Source of the DNA: Actinokineospora spheciospongiae | Lineage (GTDB): Bacteria; Actinomycetota; Actinomycetes; Mycobacteriales; Pseudonocardiaceae | Direction: 5' to 3' | Assembly: GCF_000564855.1 (NCBI RefSeq) | Contig: NZ_AYXG01000101.1 | Coordinates: 1 to 64,000, forward strand | Length of the DNA stretch: 64,000 bases | Shown: in pieces, positions 18,530-27,948 of the stretch | How the letters are laid out: each line of letters opens with the position of its first letter | How positions within the stretch are numbered: position 1 is the stretch's first letter | Translations under genes and position numbers: made by a program | The notes under the pieces: model-generated | What the model was told of the DNA's origin: nothing | Database searches by the model: none | What the model saw: the letters and a program-made list of their open reading frames with translations, nothing else

Positions 18530-18898
18530 ACCCGGTCGGGTCCCTTCGCTCTCGGTCGCGTCCCGGGGCCGCCCGGGTGGCCGGGGGCTCCCCGAACGCG
18601 CGGATCACCGGTCGAGGTCGTGCTTGACGCTAGGGAACGGCTCCGACGACGGGCCGACGAAATCCGGACGCGCCCGCTGACATCCCACCGACAGGCACGT
18701 TCGGTGACAGGCGTCCGCTCACCTGGGGGAACGGGGGAATATGCGAGCGGAACCGGCGACTGTCGGTGATGGAACACCCGCGCTGTTGGGAACTTGTTTC
18801 ACGTCCAATTGCCGCCGGCCACCGCTGCGGTGCTGGCTCACCACCGGGCGGGCCCGCGTCAGGATGAGGTCGGGTGGGGCAGGCGGAGGAGGATGTGC
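18530..18898. promoter_or_regulatory. Divergent promoter region between the lipid operon and the SARP gene
   Basis: No convincing gene is seen. Heptamer-like direct repeats TGACATC (18678), CGACAGG (18689) and TGACAGG (18705) are 11 and 16 bases apart; the 11-base step is the spacing SARP regulators use. GGGGGAA occurs twice (18725-18731 and 18733-18739). These are candidates only. Confidence 0.35.
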
Positions 18899-19663
18899 AT
18901 GCAGGTCCGGTGTCTTGGCCCGATGGTGATCGGAACCGGGCGGCGGGAGGTCGTCGTGCGGTCGTCCCTGCGGGCCAGGGTGCTCGTGGTGCTGGTGGTC
19001 AACGCGGGCGACCTCGTCTCCCGGGAGTGCCTGGTCGACGAGGTGTGGCCGAGCGACCCCCCGGCGGGGGCGGTGGGCTCGTTGCACGCGCACGTCAGCA
19101 GGCTGCGCGGGGACCTGGCCCGCTGGGGCGTCGGTGATCGCATCGACATCGCGGCCGAGCAGGGCGGCTACCGGCTCCGGATGACCGGCGTCGGTCTCGA
19201 CGTCGAGGACTACGAGGGGTTGGCCGCGACCGCCCACCGGCGGCGGCGCACCGCCGCGGGCGAGGTGCCGGAACTGGCCAGAGCCGCCCTGCGGCTGTGG
19301 CGCGGCGAACCCTTCGAGGGGTTGGAACTGGGGCTGCGCGGCCACCTGGCCCGCGCCCGGCTCCAGGAGTCGCGGATGGCGTTGTTCGAGGCACTGGTCG
19401 ACACGGCGCTGACCAGCGGCAGGCACCAGGACGTCGTCGCCGAGCTGCGCGAGCTGACCATGGTCTTCCCGTTCCGGGAGAAGTTCCACGAGCAGCTCAT
19501 GGTCGCCCTGTACCGCTGCGGGCGGCAGGTCGAAGCCGTCCAGGCGTTCCACGGCCACCGCGAGCGCATCTCGCGGGAACTGGGCTTGGAGCCCTCACCC
19601 GCACTGCGCAGGCGGATGACCGAGATCCTGCGCCACGACCCGGCGCTGTGGCAGGCGGGCTGA
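18899..19663 (+). CDS. SARP-family transcriptional regulator
   Basis: This 254-residue protein has the size and two-domain build of small SARP activators: an OmpR-like winged helix (MQVRCLGPMVIGTG through HVSRLRGDLARWG, about 1-90) and a bacterial transcriptional activation domain (about 95-245, ending FHGHRERISRELGLEPSPALRRRM). SARPs typically activate secondary-metabolism or linked operons by binding heptamer repeats. The ATG at 18899 lies 6 bases after GGAGGAGG (18885-18892); an ATG two codons earlier abuts the ribosome site. It is divergent from the acyltransferase operon, its most likely target. Confidence 0.88.
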   Translation: MQVRCLGPMVIGTGRREVVVRSSLRARVLVVLVVNAGDLVSRECLVDEVWPSDPPAGAVGSLHAHVSRLRGDLARWGVGDRIDIAAEQGGYRLRMTGVGLDVEDYEGLAATAHRRRRTAAGEVPELARAALRLWRGEPFEGLELGLRGHLARARLQESRMALFEALVDTALTSGRHQDVVAELRELTMVFPFREKFHEQLMVALYRCGRQVEAVQAFHGHRERISRELGLEPSPALRRRMTEILRHDPALWQAG

Positions 19664-21797: not shown

Positions 21798-24449
21798 TCA
21801 TCGGAGGGCGGCGATGGCGGCCTCCAGGTTCGGTTGGGGGCCGATGTGGCGCGGGTCGGCGGCCGGTTGCGCGGCGCCGGTGGCCTTGAGGAGTTGGCGG
21901 ACCCGCACCGGCGTCAGCGGGGGTCCGGACTCCTGGGCGATGCTCTGCACCACACCCACCGCGCCGACCACGATGGGGCAGGCGCCCGAGGTGCCGTTCA
22001 TGTTGCTCCAGTACACCCGGTTCGGGTCGGTCTCGGTCGGGGTCAGGTCCTGGAGCGGGTCGAGACCGCCGCCGAGGGTGGCGACGCACCTGCCGTACGC
22101 CTGGAGGTCAACGCGCGACCCGTGGGTCGAGAAGGGCATCGAGGTGCGCTCGGCGGGCCTGCCGGGCACGCACTCGGCCGTGCCGGGGATGTCGGGCGGC
22201 TCTCCGGCCCCGACGACGATGGCACCGGAGTCCGGGCGGTCCATGACGGTGCGGGCCAGTGGGTCGTCGGGGTCGTCGAGGTCGTTGCCGCCGTTGCCCG
22301 CGGCCTCCACGACGGTGATGCCCGCCGCGGTGGCCAGGACGACCTCGTCGTAGACCGCCGGGTCGACCTCCCACGGGTACCAGCCGCCGGTCTCGCGGTC
22401 GTAGGACGAGATCTCGACGAGGATCACGTCGCCGGGCTCGGAGTGCTGCCTGGCGAGGGTCATCGAGCCGGGTTCGGCGCCGCTGGCGAGCTGCAACCGC
22501 GCCCGCGGCAGGATTCCGGCGACGCCGAGGCCGTTGTCCGCCTGGGCCGCCACGATCCCGATGACCGCGGTGCCGTGCACGCCCGCGGGGGTGCACGGCG
22601 AGGAGACCATCGTCTGCAAGCGCACCGGCGCGGGGCGGTCGGCCAGGTCCTCGTGGCAGGTGTTCCACAGGTTGCGCAGGCTCGCCGCGCGCTTCTGCAC
22701 CGGGCTGCCGGTGGTGCTCCCGTCGCCGAGCTGACCGCTGCCGTTGGTCCCCCAGCCCCACAGCGCGCCGTCAGCGCCGACGGCCAGGCTGAACGCCGTG
22801 CCCGCGCCCACCAGCGACCGGGTGGCCGTGTCGCCGGGCGGGGACCGCACCTCGGACGGGGAGGACGCGTCCGCCGTGCCGCCGGTGCCGAGCTGGCCGC
22901 TGCCGTTCGCGCCCCACGCCCACAGCGCGCCGCCCTCGGTGACGGCGACGGTGTGCTGGTCGCCCGCGGCCACGTCCGTGGCCGAGTCGAGGTCGTCGAC
23001 CCGGACCGGGGTGAGGCGCGTGGTGGTGGTCCCGTCACCGACCTGGCCGTGGGAGTTGTCGCCCCAGGCCACCAGCGTTCCGTCGAGCAGCCGCGCGACG
23101 CTGTGCCCGCCGCCCGCGCCGACCTGGGCGACGGCGCCCAGGTCCGTCACCGCGACCGGTGTGGCGCTGCCCGCGGTGGAGCCGTCGCCGAGTTGGCCGC
23201 TGTCGTTGGCACCCCAGGCGCGCACGGTGCCGTCGTCCAGCAGCGCCACCGAGTGGTCGCGGCCCGCGGCGACCCCGCCCGGCCGGGTCGAGACGCCGGA
23301 GAGGTCGTCGACCGCGATCGGGGTCGTGCTGAACGGCACCCCGGCGGGCGGTGCGCCGAGCTGGCCGTGGGAGTTGTCGCCCCAGGCGCGGACCGTGCCG
23401 TCGGAGCGGACGGCGAGCACGTGGGCGTCGTCCGCGCTGATGCTCCTGACGCCTGCGAGCCCGGGGACCGGCACGGGCGCCTGCCTGGCCGTCGTGTCGC
23501 CGAGGCCGAGCTGGCCGAGGTCGTTGGCCCCCCAGGTCCACACCGTGCCGTCGGTCGTGAGCGCGACGGAGAAGTCGGTGCCCGCCGCCACCGATTCGAC
23601 GCCCGCGAGCCCCGGGACCTGCGTGAACACCGAGCTGCCCGCTGTCGTGCCGGTGCCGAGCTGGCCGCTCCCGTTGGCCCCCCAGGCGCGGACCGTGCGG
23701 TCGGCCGAGGGCACGTCGGCGTCGCTGATCACCGCCAGCGCGTGGGTCCGCCCGGCCGCGATCGCGCCGGGGCGGACGGCGACCCGGTCCGCGTGCCCGG
23801 CCTCGATGTCGGTCACCGTGACGTTCTCGCCCCCGCCCCCGGGCCGCGCGTTGGCCGCGTCCGCGCCGATCCCGGTGCCCGCGGTCGCGCCGACGGTGTT
23901 GCGGTAGACCTGGTTCGGGCGGAACGGGTCGGCCGCGGGTGACCGCGGTGGCAGTGGGGTGTAGGCGATCTCGACCGCGGGCAGGGCGTTGAGGTCGGCC
24001 ACCAGCGCGCCGGCGCCGCCGGGCGCGGTGATGGTGAACCACGAGTTGAGGTCGGGCAGCTCTCGGTCGGCGCGCTGCTCCAGCCGGAGGCGTTCCCCGG
24101 TGACGACGTCTTCCGGGAGCGGTGTCATCGGGCGCATCGACGCGCCGGGGTGCCTGCTCAGCACGGTCCGCACGGCCGAGGCGTCCCGCGCGTCCTGGGC
24201 CACCGGCCGCCGGTCCCGGACGCGCACGGCGCGGTCGGCGCGGAACTTGACGGCGACCTCGGTGGCGGAGGGATCGGCGAGGACCGCCGCACGGGTCGCC
24301 TTCGCCCGGCTGTGGTCGTAGGCGGGTGCCCTGTCCGCGGTGGACACGGCCGCGGTCCACGCGGGCAGCAGCACGACCGCCAGCACGGCGAGCGCGACCA
24401 CCGGCAGCCGTTTTCGGTGCTGTGCCTGCCATTCGACGGTTGCGGACAT
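21798..24449 (-). CDS. Secreted S8 subtilase with a seven-repeat RCC1 propeller inserted in its catalytic domain
   Basis: The 883-residue protein has a basic N-terminus and one hydrophobic export helix (about 15-33), a propeptide-like region, and then a split subtilisin domain. Catalytic Asp214 (VTDIE) is followed at about 225 by seven RCC1 repeats, each with a WG(A/D/T)N..GQ(L/V)G core (WGANGSGQLG, WGANDLGQLG, WGDNSHGQLG, WGANDSGQLG, WGDNSHGQVG, WGANGSGQLG, WGTNGSGQLG). The protease resumes at about 591 (LWNTCHEDL) with His625 (VHGTAV), oxyanion Asn719 (AAGN) and Ser821 (NGTSGAC). All catalytic residues are intact, so it should be active once folded. GGGGGAG precedes the ATG. The AfsR-like regulator gene ends 139 bases upstream on the same strand. 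Confidence 0.9.
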   Translation of the reverse strand: MSATVEWQAQHRKRLPVVALAVLAVVLLPAWTAAVSTADRAPAYDHSRAKATRAAVLADPSATEVAVKFRADRAVRVRDRRPVAQDARDASAVRTVLSRHPGASMRPMTPLPEDVVTGERLRLEQRADRELPDLNSWFTITAPGGAGALVADLNALPAVEIAYTPLPPRSPAADPFRPNQVYRNTVGATAGTGIGADAANARPGGGGENVTVTDIEAGHADRVAVRPGAIAAGRTHALAVISDADVPSADRTVRAWGANGSGQLGTGTTAGSSVFTQVPGLAGVESVAAGTDFSVALTTDGTVWTWGANDLGQLGLGDTTARQAPVPVPGLAGVRSISADDAHVLAVRSDGTVRAWGDNSHGQLGAPPAGVPFSTTPIAVDDLSGVSTRPGGVAAGRDHSVALLDDGTVRAWGANDSGQLGDGSTAGSATPVAVTDLGAVAQVGAGGGHSVARLLDGTLVAWGDNSHGQVGDGTTTTRLTPVRVDDLDSATDVAAGDQHTVAVTEGGALWAWGANGSGQLGTGGTADASSPSEVRSPPGDTATRSLVGAGTAFSLAVGADGALWGWGTNGSGQLGDGSTTGSPVQKRAASLRNLWNTCHEDLADRPAPVRLQTMVSSPCTPAGVHGTAVIGIVAAQADNGLGVAGILPRARLQLASGAEPGSMTLARQHSEPGDVILVEISSYDRETGGWYPWEVDPAVYDEVVLATAAGITVVEAAGNGGNDLDDPDDPLARTVMDRPDSGAIVVGAGEPPDIPGTAECVPGRPAERTSMPFSTHGSRVDLQAYGRCVATLGGGLDPLQDLTPTETDPNRVYWSNMNGTSGACPIVVGAVGVVQSIAQESGPPLTPVRVRQLLKATGAAQPAADPRHIGPQPNLEAAIAALR

Positions 24450-24588: not shown

Positions 24589-27369
24589 CTACCCGCCCGC
24601 CCCCTCCGCAGGCGTGTCCACTCGGGCGGAGTGGAGCAGTGCCCGCAGTTCGCGCGCGTTGCCCTCGCGGCCCTGCTCCTCGTACCTGCCCAGCGCGCTC
24701 TGCCAGGCCGCACGCGCTCGATCGTGCTGCCCGAGTGCCGCGTGGGCGTGGCCGAGCCGGTCGAGGGTGTCCGCTTCCTCCGCCGCGGAGCCGATTTCGC
24801 GCAGGAGGGCGAGCGCGGTCAGGTAGTGGTCGACCGAGTCGGCGTGCCTGCCGCTGTGGTGGGCGATGTAGCCGAGGCTGTCCAGGGTGGTCGCCTGCCC
24901 CTCGGTGTTGTCGTGGCGCAGGAACAGGTCGTAGGCCTCCCGGCAGTGCTCGCGCCCCGCGGCGAGGTCGCCGGATATCGCGGCGTACCAGCCGACCGCG
25001 TTGAGCGCCCCCGCCTCCCACAGCGGGTCGCCGAGGGTGCGGCAGATGCGCAGCGCGTGCTCGGCGTGGTCGCGGGCCTGGTGGCTGTCCCCCCTGGACA
25101 TCGCGGCGGAGGCGAGGGTCCGGTGGGTGTGGGCCTGGTTGAGGTCGTCGTCGTGGTGCTCGGCCAGCGCCAGCGCGGCCCGCAGGCAGCGGCCCGCCTC
25201 GTCGTGCTGCCCGAGGTCGGCGTGCGCGCGGCCGAGCAGCCGGTGGGCGCGCACGTGCGCGGTCGGGTCGGACAGGTGGGCCACGGCGTCCACCGCGGCC
25301 GTCCACACGGCGAGCCGGTCGCGGAGGTGGCCGCGCCTGCGCAGGTAGGTCTCCAGCGCGCCCGCCAGGCCCCAGGTGACCCGGTGGAGCTGCCGGTCCG
25401 CCGCCGCCCGCTGGGTGGCGAGCAGGTTGTCGCGCTCGGCGCTGAACCAGCGCGTGGCCGCGGCGTCGTCCTCGGCGGTGAGCGGGGCGCAGCCCGCCAC
25501 CGGTGGGGCCAGGTCCAGCGAGGGGCGGTCGGGGTTGAAGACGGCGTCGGCGTTGCGCGCCGTGTGCAGGTAGAAGTCGGTCAACCGGTCCAGCGCGGCG
25601 GTGACGACGTCGGCGGGCAGGTCCTGGGCGGTCTCGCCCGCGTGCAGCCGGATCAGGTCGTGCATCCGGTGGCGCCCGGTGTCCGAGCCGGTGAGCAGCG
25701 ACGCCTGTTCCAGGGCGCGCAGCACCGCCGCCGCGGCGGTCTCGGGCAGGCCGAGCAGGCTCGCGGCGGCGGGCAGGCCGATGTCGCGGCCCGGCGCGGT
25801 GCCCAGCAGCGCGTAGGCGGTGGCCTGCTCGGGGGTGAGCACCGTGAGCGACAGCGAGAGCACCGCCCGGAGGTTGGCGGCCGGGTCGGTGTCGGCGAGC
25901 GCTTCGAGCCCGAGGTCGCCCAGCGCGGCGGCCAAGCCCACCAGCGTGAGCCGCGGCCGGGTCAGCGCGTGGGCGGCGACCAGGCTCAGCGCCAGCGGGA
26001 AGCCGCCGCACAGCTCGACGAGCCGGTCCAGCCCCTCGGCCTCCGCCGTCGCCCGGTCGGTGCCGATCCGGTCGGCGAGAAGTGCCCGCGCCTCACCGGC
26101 CGAGAGCACGTCCAGCGGCAGGTGACCCGCGCCGTGCCGGGTGAGCAGGCCGGTGAGGACGGTGCGGCTGGTGATCAGGACCGTGCAGCGGTCGCTGTCG
26201 GGCAGCAGCGGCGCGACCTGGGCGCTGTCCGCCGCGTTGTCCAGCACCACCAGCACCCGCTTGCCCGCGACCAGCCCCCGGAACAGGGTGGCCGCCGCGT
26301 GCGGGTCGACCGGGATGCGCGCGGGCTCCACGCCGAACGCGTCGAGGAAACCGCGGACGGCGGCCGCCGCGGGCAGGGGCGCCCCCTCGGGGCTGAAGCC
26401 GCGCAGGTCGACGAACAGTTGGCCGTCGGGGAAGCGGTCGGCGTGCCGGTGCGCCCAGTGCAGGGCCAGCCAGGTCTTGCCGATCCCGCCCGCGCCGGTC
26501 AGGGCCGAGATGACCACCGGTGCGCCGGGGTCCACGCCTGCCAGCGCGGCGTCCAGCCGGGCCAGGTCCCGGTGGCGGCCGACGAACCGCCGGGGGGCGC
26601 GCGGCAACTGGCGGCACAGCGCGGCGGGCGTGATCGTCGGGGCCCGGCCCGCGGCCAGCAGGGTGCCGTGCCACTGCTGGAGCCGGGTGCCCGGCTCGGT
26701 GCCGAGCTCCTCGACGAGCCGGTCGCGAATCCGGCGGTAGTGCGCCAGCGCGTCGGCGGTGCGCCCAGCCTGGTGCAGCGCGAGCATGTACTGACCGGCA
26801 ACGCGCTCGTCGAGGGGCCGGTTGGCGACCCTGGTGGCCAGCTCGGCCACCAGGTGTTCGCCGTGGCCCGTCCGCAACCGCGCGTCGACCAGGTCGCACT
26901 GGGCCGCGATCCGCTCCTCGTCGAGCCCGGCGCGTTCGACGGCGGCCCACGCGCTGTCCAGGCCGGTCAGCGCCTCCCCGCGCCACAGGTCCAGCGCGTC
27001 GGTGAGCAGCCGGGCGGCTTCGGCGGGGTCGGGTTCGGACCGGGCCCGCGCGCACAGGTCGCGGAAGGCGACCACGTCGACGGCGCGGGCCCCGGTGGTG
27101 ACGAGCGCGTAGCCGCCGGGTCTGCGGGCGATCTCGAGCCAGTCCACGCCCGCGAGCGCCTGCCGCAGCCGCGACAGGTAGCTGTGCAGCGTCGCCCGGC
27201 CGCGCCGGGGCACGTCCTCGGCCCAGACCCGCTCGACCAACTGGTCCACCGGCACCACCCGGCCCGCGTCGAGGGCGAGCGCGGCGAGGAGGCACCGCTG
27301 CCTCGCGGGCCCCAGGTCCACCCGGTGCCCGCCCGCGTGGACCGCCACCTCCCCGAGCAGGCGCAACAC
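24589..27369 (-). CDS. AfsR-like regulator (winged helix, BTAD, NB-ARC ATPase, TPR)
   Basis: This 926-residue protein has the AfsR architecture: an OmpR-like winged helix (about 1-95), a BTAD (about 97-240), an NB-ARC ATPase with P-loop GAGGIGKTW (292-300) and Walker B VLVVLDNAAD, and a C-terminal TPR region (for example AHRLLGRAHADLGQHDEAGR and ALNAVGWYAAISGDL). ATP-dependent assembly regulates DNA binding in known members. GTG 27369 is chosen because GGAGG lies 7 bases before it; the frame is open to 27864, but through the divergent gene. It precedes the split subtilase on the same strand and is divergent from an I36-like inhibitor gene, so it may control both. Confidence 0.9.
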   Translation of the reverse strand: MLRLLGEVAVHAGGHRVDLGPARQRCLLAALALDAGRVVPVDQLVERVWAEDVPRRGRATLHSYLSRLRQALAGVDWLEIARRPGGYALVTTGARAVDVVAFRDLCARARSEPDPAEAARLLTDALDLWRGEALTGLDSAWAAVERAGLDEERIAAQCDLVDARLRTGHGEHLVAELATRVANRPLDERVAGQYMLALHQAGRTADALAHYRRIRDRLVEELGTEPGTRLQQWHGTLLAAGRAPTITPAALCRQLPRAPRRFVGRHRDLARLDAALAGVDPGAPVVISALTGAGGIGKTWLALHWAHRHADRFPDGQLFVDLRGFSPEGAPLPAAAAVRGFLDAFGVEPARIPVDPHAAATLFRGLVAGKRVLVVLDNAADSAQVAPLLPDSDRCTVLITSRTVLTGLLTRHGAGHLPLDVLSAGEARALLADRIGTDRATAEAEGLDRLVELCGGFPLALSLVAAHALTRPRLTLVGLAAALGDLGLEALADTDPAANLRAVLSLSLTVLTPEQATAYALLGTAPGRDIGLPAAASLLGLPETAAAAVLRALEQASLLTGSDTGRHRMHDLIRLHAGETAQDLPADVVTAALDRLTDFYLHTARNADAVFNPDRPSLDLAPPVAGCAPLTAEDDAAATRWFSAERDNLLATQRAAADRQLHRVTWGLAGALETYLRRRGHLRDRLAVWTAAVDAVAHLSDPTAHVRAHRLLGRAHADLGQHDEAGRCLRAALALAEHHDDDLNQAHTHRTLASAAMSRGDSHQARDHAEHALRICRTLGDPLWEAGALNAVGWYAAISGDLAAGREHCREAYDLFLRHDNTEGQATTLDSLGYIAHHSGRHADSVDHYLTALALLREIGSAAEEADTLDRLGHAHAALGQHDRARAAWQSALGRYEEQGREGNARELRALLHSARVDTPAEGAGG

Positions 27370-27489
27370 GCCGCCACCTCCCCCGTACCGCCCCTGACCC
27401 GCGGAATGCGGAAACGTCGCAAGCGATCCGCAGTGCCCGCGTCCCAGTATGGCCGCACAGCGCAAGCCGAACGGACGAGGGAGCCGAAC
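27370..27489. promoter_or_regulatory. Divergent promoter region, AfsR-like gene / I36-like gene
   Basis: These 120 bases separate two divergent starts. Short inverted arms GCGGA (27402) and TCCGC (27428) flank AAACGTCGCAAGCGA. No clear sigma-70 boxes were identified. Confidence 0.3.
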
Positions 27490-27948
27490 ATGATCGGGAA
27501 CAGGGTGGCGCGCGGGGTGGCGAAGGTGGCCGGGGTGGCGTTGACCGCCGCGGCGGCGCTGGTGGTGGGGCCGCAGGCGGCGTCGGCCCAGGTGGCGGCG
27601 CAGGCCCCGGCGGTGGCGTGCCAGGCCGTCGGGCGGGTGTCCGGCTCGGTCGCCGAGTACACCCTCTACGACGACGCCGGGTACTCCGGCGCCTGCATCA
27701 CCTTCTACCGGCTGGGGAACTGCACCGCCACCACCGGGGACGTGAACGGGCTCTACAACCTGGCCGGGTGGGGCTGGGACAACCGGGCCGGTTCGGTGCA
27801 CACCTACAGCCAGTGCGACGTGATGGTGTACGACGCGCGGGACTGCCCGCGCGGCGGGGCGCACAGCACCTGGGTCGACCAGAGCGCGGACCTGCGGCTC
27901 GGCGGCGTGAACTGGCAGAACCGCGCCACCTGCGTGCTCGTGAGCTGA
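27490..27948 (+). CDS. Secreted peptidase inhibitor I36-like / beta-gamma-crystallin-fold protein
   Basis: The 152-residue protein has a signal peptide (about 1-33, ending ASAQ) and a small Cys-containing beta-rich domain with the crystallin-like motif YDDAGYSGACITFY and a second half ending WVDQSADLRLGGVNWQNRATC. This is the pattern of the I36 (SMPI-like) inhibitor family, whose characterised member blocks metalloproteases; inhibition here is not proven. GGGAG precedes the ATG at 27490. The last base of its TGA stop is the first base of the ATG of the next gene, so translation is coupled to a small HTH protein. Confidence 0.75.
   Translation: MIGNRVARGVAKVAGVALTAAAALVVGPQAASAQVAAQAPAVACQAVGRVSGSVAEYTLYDDAGYSGACITFYRLGNCTATTGDVNGLYNLAGWGWDNRAGSVHTYSQCDVMVYDARDCPRGGAHSTWVDQSADLRLGGVNWQNRATCVLVS

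Follow-up and report, generated by a model that had tools for sequence, protein, structure and literature searches.

The gene at 21798-24449 (-) of the window, the 64,000-nucleotide stretch of DNA analyzed here, encodes an actinobacterial subtilisin-type (S8) protease in which, to judge from sequence comparison, a seven-repeat RCC1 propeller has almost certainly been inserted at the turn just after the catalytic Asp. The insert begins two residues after Asp214, and its 378 residues (217-594) replace a two-residue turn of propeller-free relatives. This domain architecture is real and conserved; it belongs to a known protease family and is apparently undescribed. The gene is a single open frame of 883 codons with an ATG start, in which the following features were assigned.

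21798..24449 (-), complete gene of an S8 pro-protease into which an RCC1 propeller is inserted, 883 amino acids plus stop
24336..24449 (-), residues 1-38, signal-peptide-like N terminus (basic, then hydrophobic), read by eye from the sequence; model pLDDT <50 at 1-37
23946..24317 (-), residues 45-168, putative prodomain, from alignment with insert-bearing relatives and a modeled strand-helix pattern
23802..23918 (-), residues 178-216, first catalytic segment, ending V-T-D214-I-E216, from alignments
23808..23810 (-), catalytic Asp214, kept in 29/30 insert-bearing proteins
22668..23801 (-), residues 217-594, the insert, a seven-repeat RCC1 propeller including linkers, from Pfam, AlphaFold2, the UVR8 match, and empty-site relatives
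21801..22667 (-), residues 595-883, second catalytic segment, starting W-N-T-C-H-E-D-L, from Pfam S8 and from PDB subtilases by profile
22656..22658 (-), Cys598, putatively paired in a disulfide with Cys619, present in 30/30 proteins with the insert and 0/30 without
22593..22595 (-), Cys619, possible disulfide partner of Cys598, present in 30/30 proteins with the insert and 0/30 without
22575..22577 (-), catalytic His625, kept in 30/30 insert-bearing proteins
22293..22295 (-), oxyanion-hole Asn719, kept in 30/30 insert-bearing proteins
21987..21989 (-), catalytic Ser821, kept in 30/30 insert-bearing proteins

The catalytic residues occur in the S8 order Asp, His, (Asn), Ser with the motifs of the family, and the Pfam scan of the 883-residue protein gave a match to Peptidase_S8 (PF00082, E 2.7e-20) and none to S9. 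A profile of the second catalytic segment reached 92 PDB sequences at E <=1e-5, and nearly all of the 60 best are named subtilisins or serine proteases. All four residues reported in the original prediction are present (Asp214, His625, Ser821, and Asn719, whose role in the oxyanion hole is assigned as in other S8 proteases), and the separation of Asp214 and His625, given there as about 410 residues, is 411. The further suggestion of a working protease is probably right, to judge from the retention of the catalytic residues in 29 of 30 family members; L183, from G602, is the lone paralogue without the Asp, which is replaced by Val, and is a possible pseudoprotease. The protein is probably secreted. 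Residues 1-216 can be aligned in six of the eight propeller-free relatives tested, in two of these from about residue 130 onward only, and residues 61-165 of the AlphaFold2 model show a strand-helix pattern in the region of the putative prodomain. A prodomain of the Inhibitor_I9 type occurs in many S8 members but not in all, and the Pfam scan of the 883-residue protein gave no prodomain match. The low-confidence stretch that follows, residues 169-177, may be the maturation site. The promoter scan returned no promoter-like site, and the terminator scan returned one terminator-like site against 1.0 expected.

The evidence that the propeller interrupts the protease comes from relatives in which the site is empty. 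In each of the 30 propeller-free relatives examined, D-x-E is followed by two residues and then by W-x-x-x-H-E-D, and the spacing of Asp and His is 30-36 residues; it should be noted that these are the relatives with a locus at hand, at least two further matches (G078:C8 and G122:C26) having been left out, and that they are not independent, many being nearly identical members of a small number of groups. Because both flanks of the insert are contiguous in all 30, the arrangement is an insertion, and a tandem fusion of RCC1 repeats next to a complete protease is ruled out; the initial reading of the flanks as one interrupted subtilisin segment was therefore correct. Short turns are the rule in subtilases, and the empty site is thus taken as ancestral. 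The position proposed for the insert stands, whereas its limits, given as residues 225-588, are moved slightly outward by the empty-site comparison to 217-594 (22668-23801). Partial coverage of the Pfam S8 profile was rejected as proof of a split, since the profile is matched from position 53 in the 883-residue protein and likewise only from positions 36-52 in the five propeller-free relatives scanned. The only cysteine found between Asp and His in the propeller-free set lies directly after the Asp, in two of the 30; a disulfide between Cys598 and Cys619, if these residues pair, may staple the insert junction.

The Pfam scan identified RCC1 (PF00415, E 3.1e-63) in seven stretches, in agreement with the seven repeats first counted by eye, together with WD40_RLD (PF25390, E 7e-91). 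An AlphaFold2 model of the full chain, built from a 38-row alignment, has a pLDDT of 87.9 and a pTM of 0.83 and contains 28 strands between residues 230 and 587. In a fold search of this model against the PDB, there were 1037 matches at E <=0.001, of which the best 50 are all RCC1-type propellers by description; the top match is UVR8 (TM 0.91 by target length, rmsd 2.1), and HERC2, RPGR, RCC1, and, from rank 45, BLIP-II are also matched by the insert. By the strand count of the model and the match to UVR8, the insert is predicted to be a closed seven-bladed propeller. The junctions are modeled with confidence, the ten-residue blocks across 201-230 and 581-600 all scoring >=87 (87-94); confidence is lower in block 621-630, around His625 (76), and in blocks 751-760 and 791-800 (70). 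The pTM of the model, attained despite an insert of 378 residues, suggests a defined arrangement of the parts. The model of L014, a propeller-free relative, is poor (pLDDT 60.2, pTM 0.68, low around the Asp-His stretch), and its top PDB fold match is pro-subtilisin E; the best 50 matches are subtilases by name or, for some, presumably so.

An insert at the same site, of 365-382 residues by alignment, is shared by 30 proteins from 11 genomes, 4 of them from the window's own family and 26 from another; one gene under two locus identifiers was counted once, and all 30 were found with queries from the insert-bearing family. All 30 have His, Asn, and Ser, and 29 have Asp. Insert-bearing genes were found in 4 of 249 genomes of the window's own family, the window's genome included, in 7 of 250 genomes of the family to which the search codes assign Streptosporangium carneum and Actinomadura rayongensis, which NCBI places in separate families, and in 2 of 394 genomes of a class-wide sample, both already among the previous finds; all these counts are lower bounds, 2 to 9 candidates having been scored per genome. 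In a pattern scan of genomes, 4 of the best 80 loci (of 184) span the whole protein. The gene occurs in multiple copies: G602 has at least nine, G771 has five, four of which lie within ∼17 kb, and S. carneum and A. rayongensis have four apiece. A scan of open reading frames for S8 together with RCC1 outside the insert-bearing lineage found 63 that match both profiles and none beyond the known loci; the profiles and loci were derived from the insert-bearing family, so that other S8/RCC1 fusions could escape. Carriage on plasmids was also considered and rejected: 98 plasmid records match, none covers 80% of the query, and the best ten of the 98 reach at most residues 213-593, which is the insert region.

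In a tree of the catalytic part, calculated with the insert columns omitted, a single branch with support of 100/100 sets the 23 insert-bearing rows apart, and the four rows of the window's own family group together (98/98). The tree has 38 rows, comprising 23 of the 30 insert-bearing and 15 of the 30 propeller-free proteins, the remainder having been found later or left out, and the program issued a warning about long branches that come together among the propeller-free rows and about one long row, L147. A single insertion event in the ancestor of the insert-bearing lineage is most likely. A second RCC1 propeller lies C-terminal to the protease in 15 of the 30 proteins (L113, L147, L152, L153, L156, L157, L180, L182, L183, and L211-L216), and two family members have a ricin-type lectin tail, assigned by Pfam in L155 and by reading of the sequence in L151. 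The last 38 residues of L005 resemble the start of an outer propeller, cut short. When each propeller was compared with the family's own and with 57 other RCC1 stretches, the best match of the inner propellers was another inner propeller in 30 of 30 and that of the outer propellers another outer one in 15 of 15. A quick RCC1 tree of 74 rows, which include the 29 of the 57 other stretches that were retained by length, sets the inner propellers apart by a single branch (SH-aLRT 91) and requires two changes for the outer; on these results, derivation of the inner propeller from the outer was not adopted.

The same results bear on the possibility that the insertion is debris or an assembly artifact with no function. 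The loss of the catalytic Asp in L183 and the 38-residue end of L005, which could be left from an outer propeller, could be read in this way, but across 30 proteins from 11 genomes the insert agrees in site and length and the catalytic residues are retained, and none of the insert-type matches listed has internal stops. An assembly artifact is ruled out by the 30 conserved cases at one site, and a non-functional insertion is very improbable.

The surroundings of the gene were compared in ten fetched stretches (covering 11 of the 30 genes; G771 and G725 were left out), with neighboring genes called by a simple GC-based rule. No partner gene is shared by most of the ten, the protease alone being common to them, and a conserved partner was therefore rejected; scattered matches were to a two-component-kinase-like gene in two, a SARP-like gene in one, and the pair L187/L194. 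Directly upstream of the protease gene in the window is a SARP/AfsR-like regulator with NB-ARC and TPR (24589-27864 (-)), matched in one of the ten homologue stretches only, L193. A second SARP-type regulator, with a BTAD domain, lies at 18794-19663 (+). A small cysteine-containing protein with a signal-like start (27490-27948 (+)) has no Pfam match at 0.001 and by eye resembles, we presume, protease inhibitors of the I36 or crystallin type.

The proposed mechanism is as follows. The protease would be synthesized as a pro-enzyme of the subtilisin type and probably secreted, and an RCC1-type propeller would have entered the short turn after its catalytic Asp, most likely once. To judge from the fold, the first blade of a closed propeller should adjoin the last, so that the domain could replace two turn residues and leave the protease core intact, with the conserved cysteine pair beside it possibly acting as a staple. 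Asp214, Ile215, and Glu216 should be equivalent, we assume, to subtilisin residues 32-34, which adjoin the S2 region, and for this reason the propeller is probably located at the edge of the active-site cleft. There it could act as a built-in substrate-binding and gating domain, selecting or admitting protein substrates that the catalytic domain would then cut. This role as selector or gate is the likeliest of those considered and is put forward tentatively. The paralogue arrays, and the lack of a shared neighboring gene in the ten stretches, favor a self-contained enzyme in which the propeller selects or lets in the protein substrates. The empty site, the shared site and length of the insert, the one-branch tree, the kept catalytic residues, the confidence of the model and its propeller matches, the low identity of the inner propeller over all pairs, the multiplied copies, and the example of the S9 prolyl oligopeptidases speak for this reading as a whole; against it are the lower model confidence around His625, the identities in matched pairs, the variable linkers, the lack of a distinct docking blade, and the Asp-less L183.

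The divergence of the modules is less favorable to gating than it first appears. Over all 435 pairs, the inner propeller has the lowest mean identity (0.50, compared with 0.53 for the prodomain and 0.56 for the catalytic part); the prodomain value uses fewer columns, as several loci start inside it. In the 105 pairs in which both members have both propellers, the values are 0.505 for the inner propeller, 0.508 for the prodomain, 0.54 for the catalytic part, and 0.59 for the outer propeller, so that the inner propeller is distinct from the outer propeller and the protease but hardly differs from the prodomain; in certain close pairs the order is reversed, as in L143/L145 (inner 0.95, catalytic 0.93). 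The argument from divergence is thus weaker in matched pairs, which weakens gating and strengthens the alternatives of a brace and an anchor. A docking blade could not be singled out by conservation, as the per-blade trend is alike in inner and outer propellers. Loops BC and DA of the inner propeller are more variable than CD, an observation on inner propellers only from which no inference was drawn.

The propeller might instead be a structural brace that stabilizes the protease and positions the prodomain without any part in substrate selection, a possible but doubtful explanation. There is a precedent in the germination protease CspB, in which a jellyroll insert of ∼130 residues interrupts the subtilase domain, wedged between subtilase and prodomain; when it is removed, the enzyme loses stability and autoprocessing becomes slower (PMC3567191). 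A rigid brace would fit the cysteine pair and the confidently modeled junctions, whereas all 30 propeller-free relatives examined manage without a propeller. The linkers, moreover, are mostly variable (2 of 20 positions in 217-229 and 588-594 above 0.6), which does not suggest a tight fit and, as far as sequence can tell, argues against a specific packed junction. The remaining alternative is an anchoring or targeting module, by which the enzyme, once secreted, would be attached to a polymer or surface; the position of the propeller in the sequence would then be incidental. The family does carry other accessory modules, namely the second propeller in 15 of 30 proteins and the lectin tails of L155 and L151. 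Anchoring modules are usually terminal, however, unlike an insert in the Asp turn, and this insert is kept after the Asp in 30 of 30 proteins (found with family-derived queries) while the terminal modules vary; we regard an anchor as unlikely.

Among the listed papers of the open literature that pair RCC1 with proteases, in which subscription papers are mostly not included, none concerns an RCC1 propeller in a subtilase; in PMC3482391 the sole match to RCC1 is the name of a virus strain. Many described homologues would have spoken against the original prediction; 29 others exist, and none is described among the papers listed. With S8 subtilases in general (PF00082), the protein shares the Asp-His-Ser order, the oxyanion Asn, the G-T-S motif, and a prodomain-like N terminus, and it differs at the Asp turn, where a 378-residue propeller takes the place of the two residues present in each of the 30 relatives examined. 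A long insert between Asp and His also occurs in tripeptidyl peptidase II and pyrolysin; it is not known to be an RCC1 propeller. In S9 peptidases the propeller is likewise inserted within the catalytic domain, which is an α/β hydrolase with the order Ser-Asp-His, and belongs to a different propeller family. The S9 prolyl oligopeptidases and DPPIV resemble the present protein in combining a protease with a β-propeller, which in the prolyl oligopeptidases controls access to the active site (PMC9218822); the 883-residue protein is distinguished by its Asp, His, Ser order and its S8 match. BLIP-II is a secreted bacterial RCC1-type propeller that inhibits β-lactamase (PMC9218822); it is similar in kind to the insert but is a stand-alone inhibitor and not part of a protease. 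CspB has in common with the present protein a whole β domain that interrupts the subtilase core, and differs in the type of domain, a jellyroll of ∼130 residues as against an RCC1 insert, and in organism and setting (PMC3567191). The present family would show that a protease can survive the entry of a whole propeller beside a catalytic residue, and the empty-site relatives are its natural controls. If the propeller selects substrates, control of a protease by a propeller would have arisen a second time, and the family would offer a natural template for programmable proteases. That subtilisins independently evolved a propeller-gated protease, in which an RCC1 domain in the Asp turn filters substrates as the S9 propeller does and paralogue arrays diversify the filter, is a rather doubtful extension of the comparison with S9.
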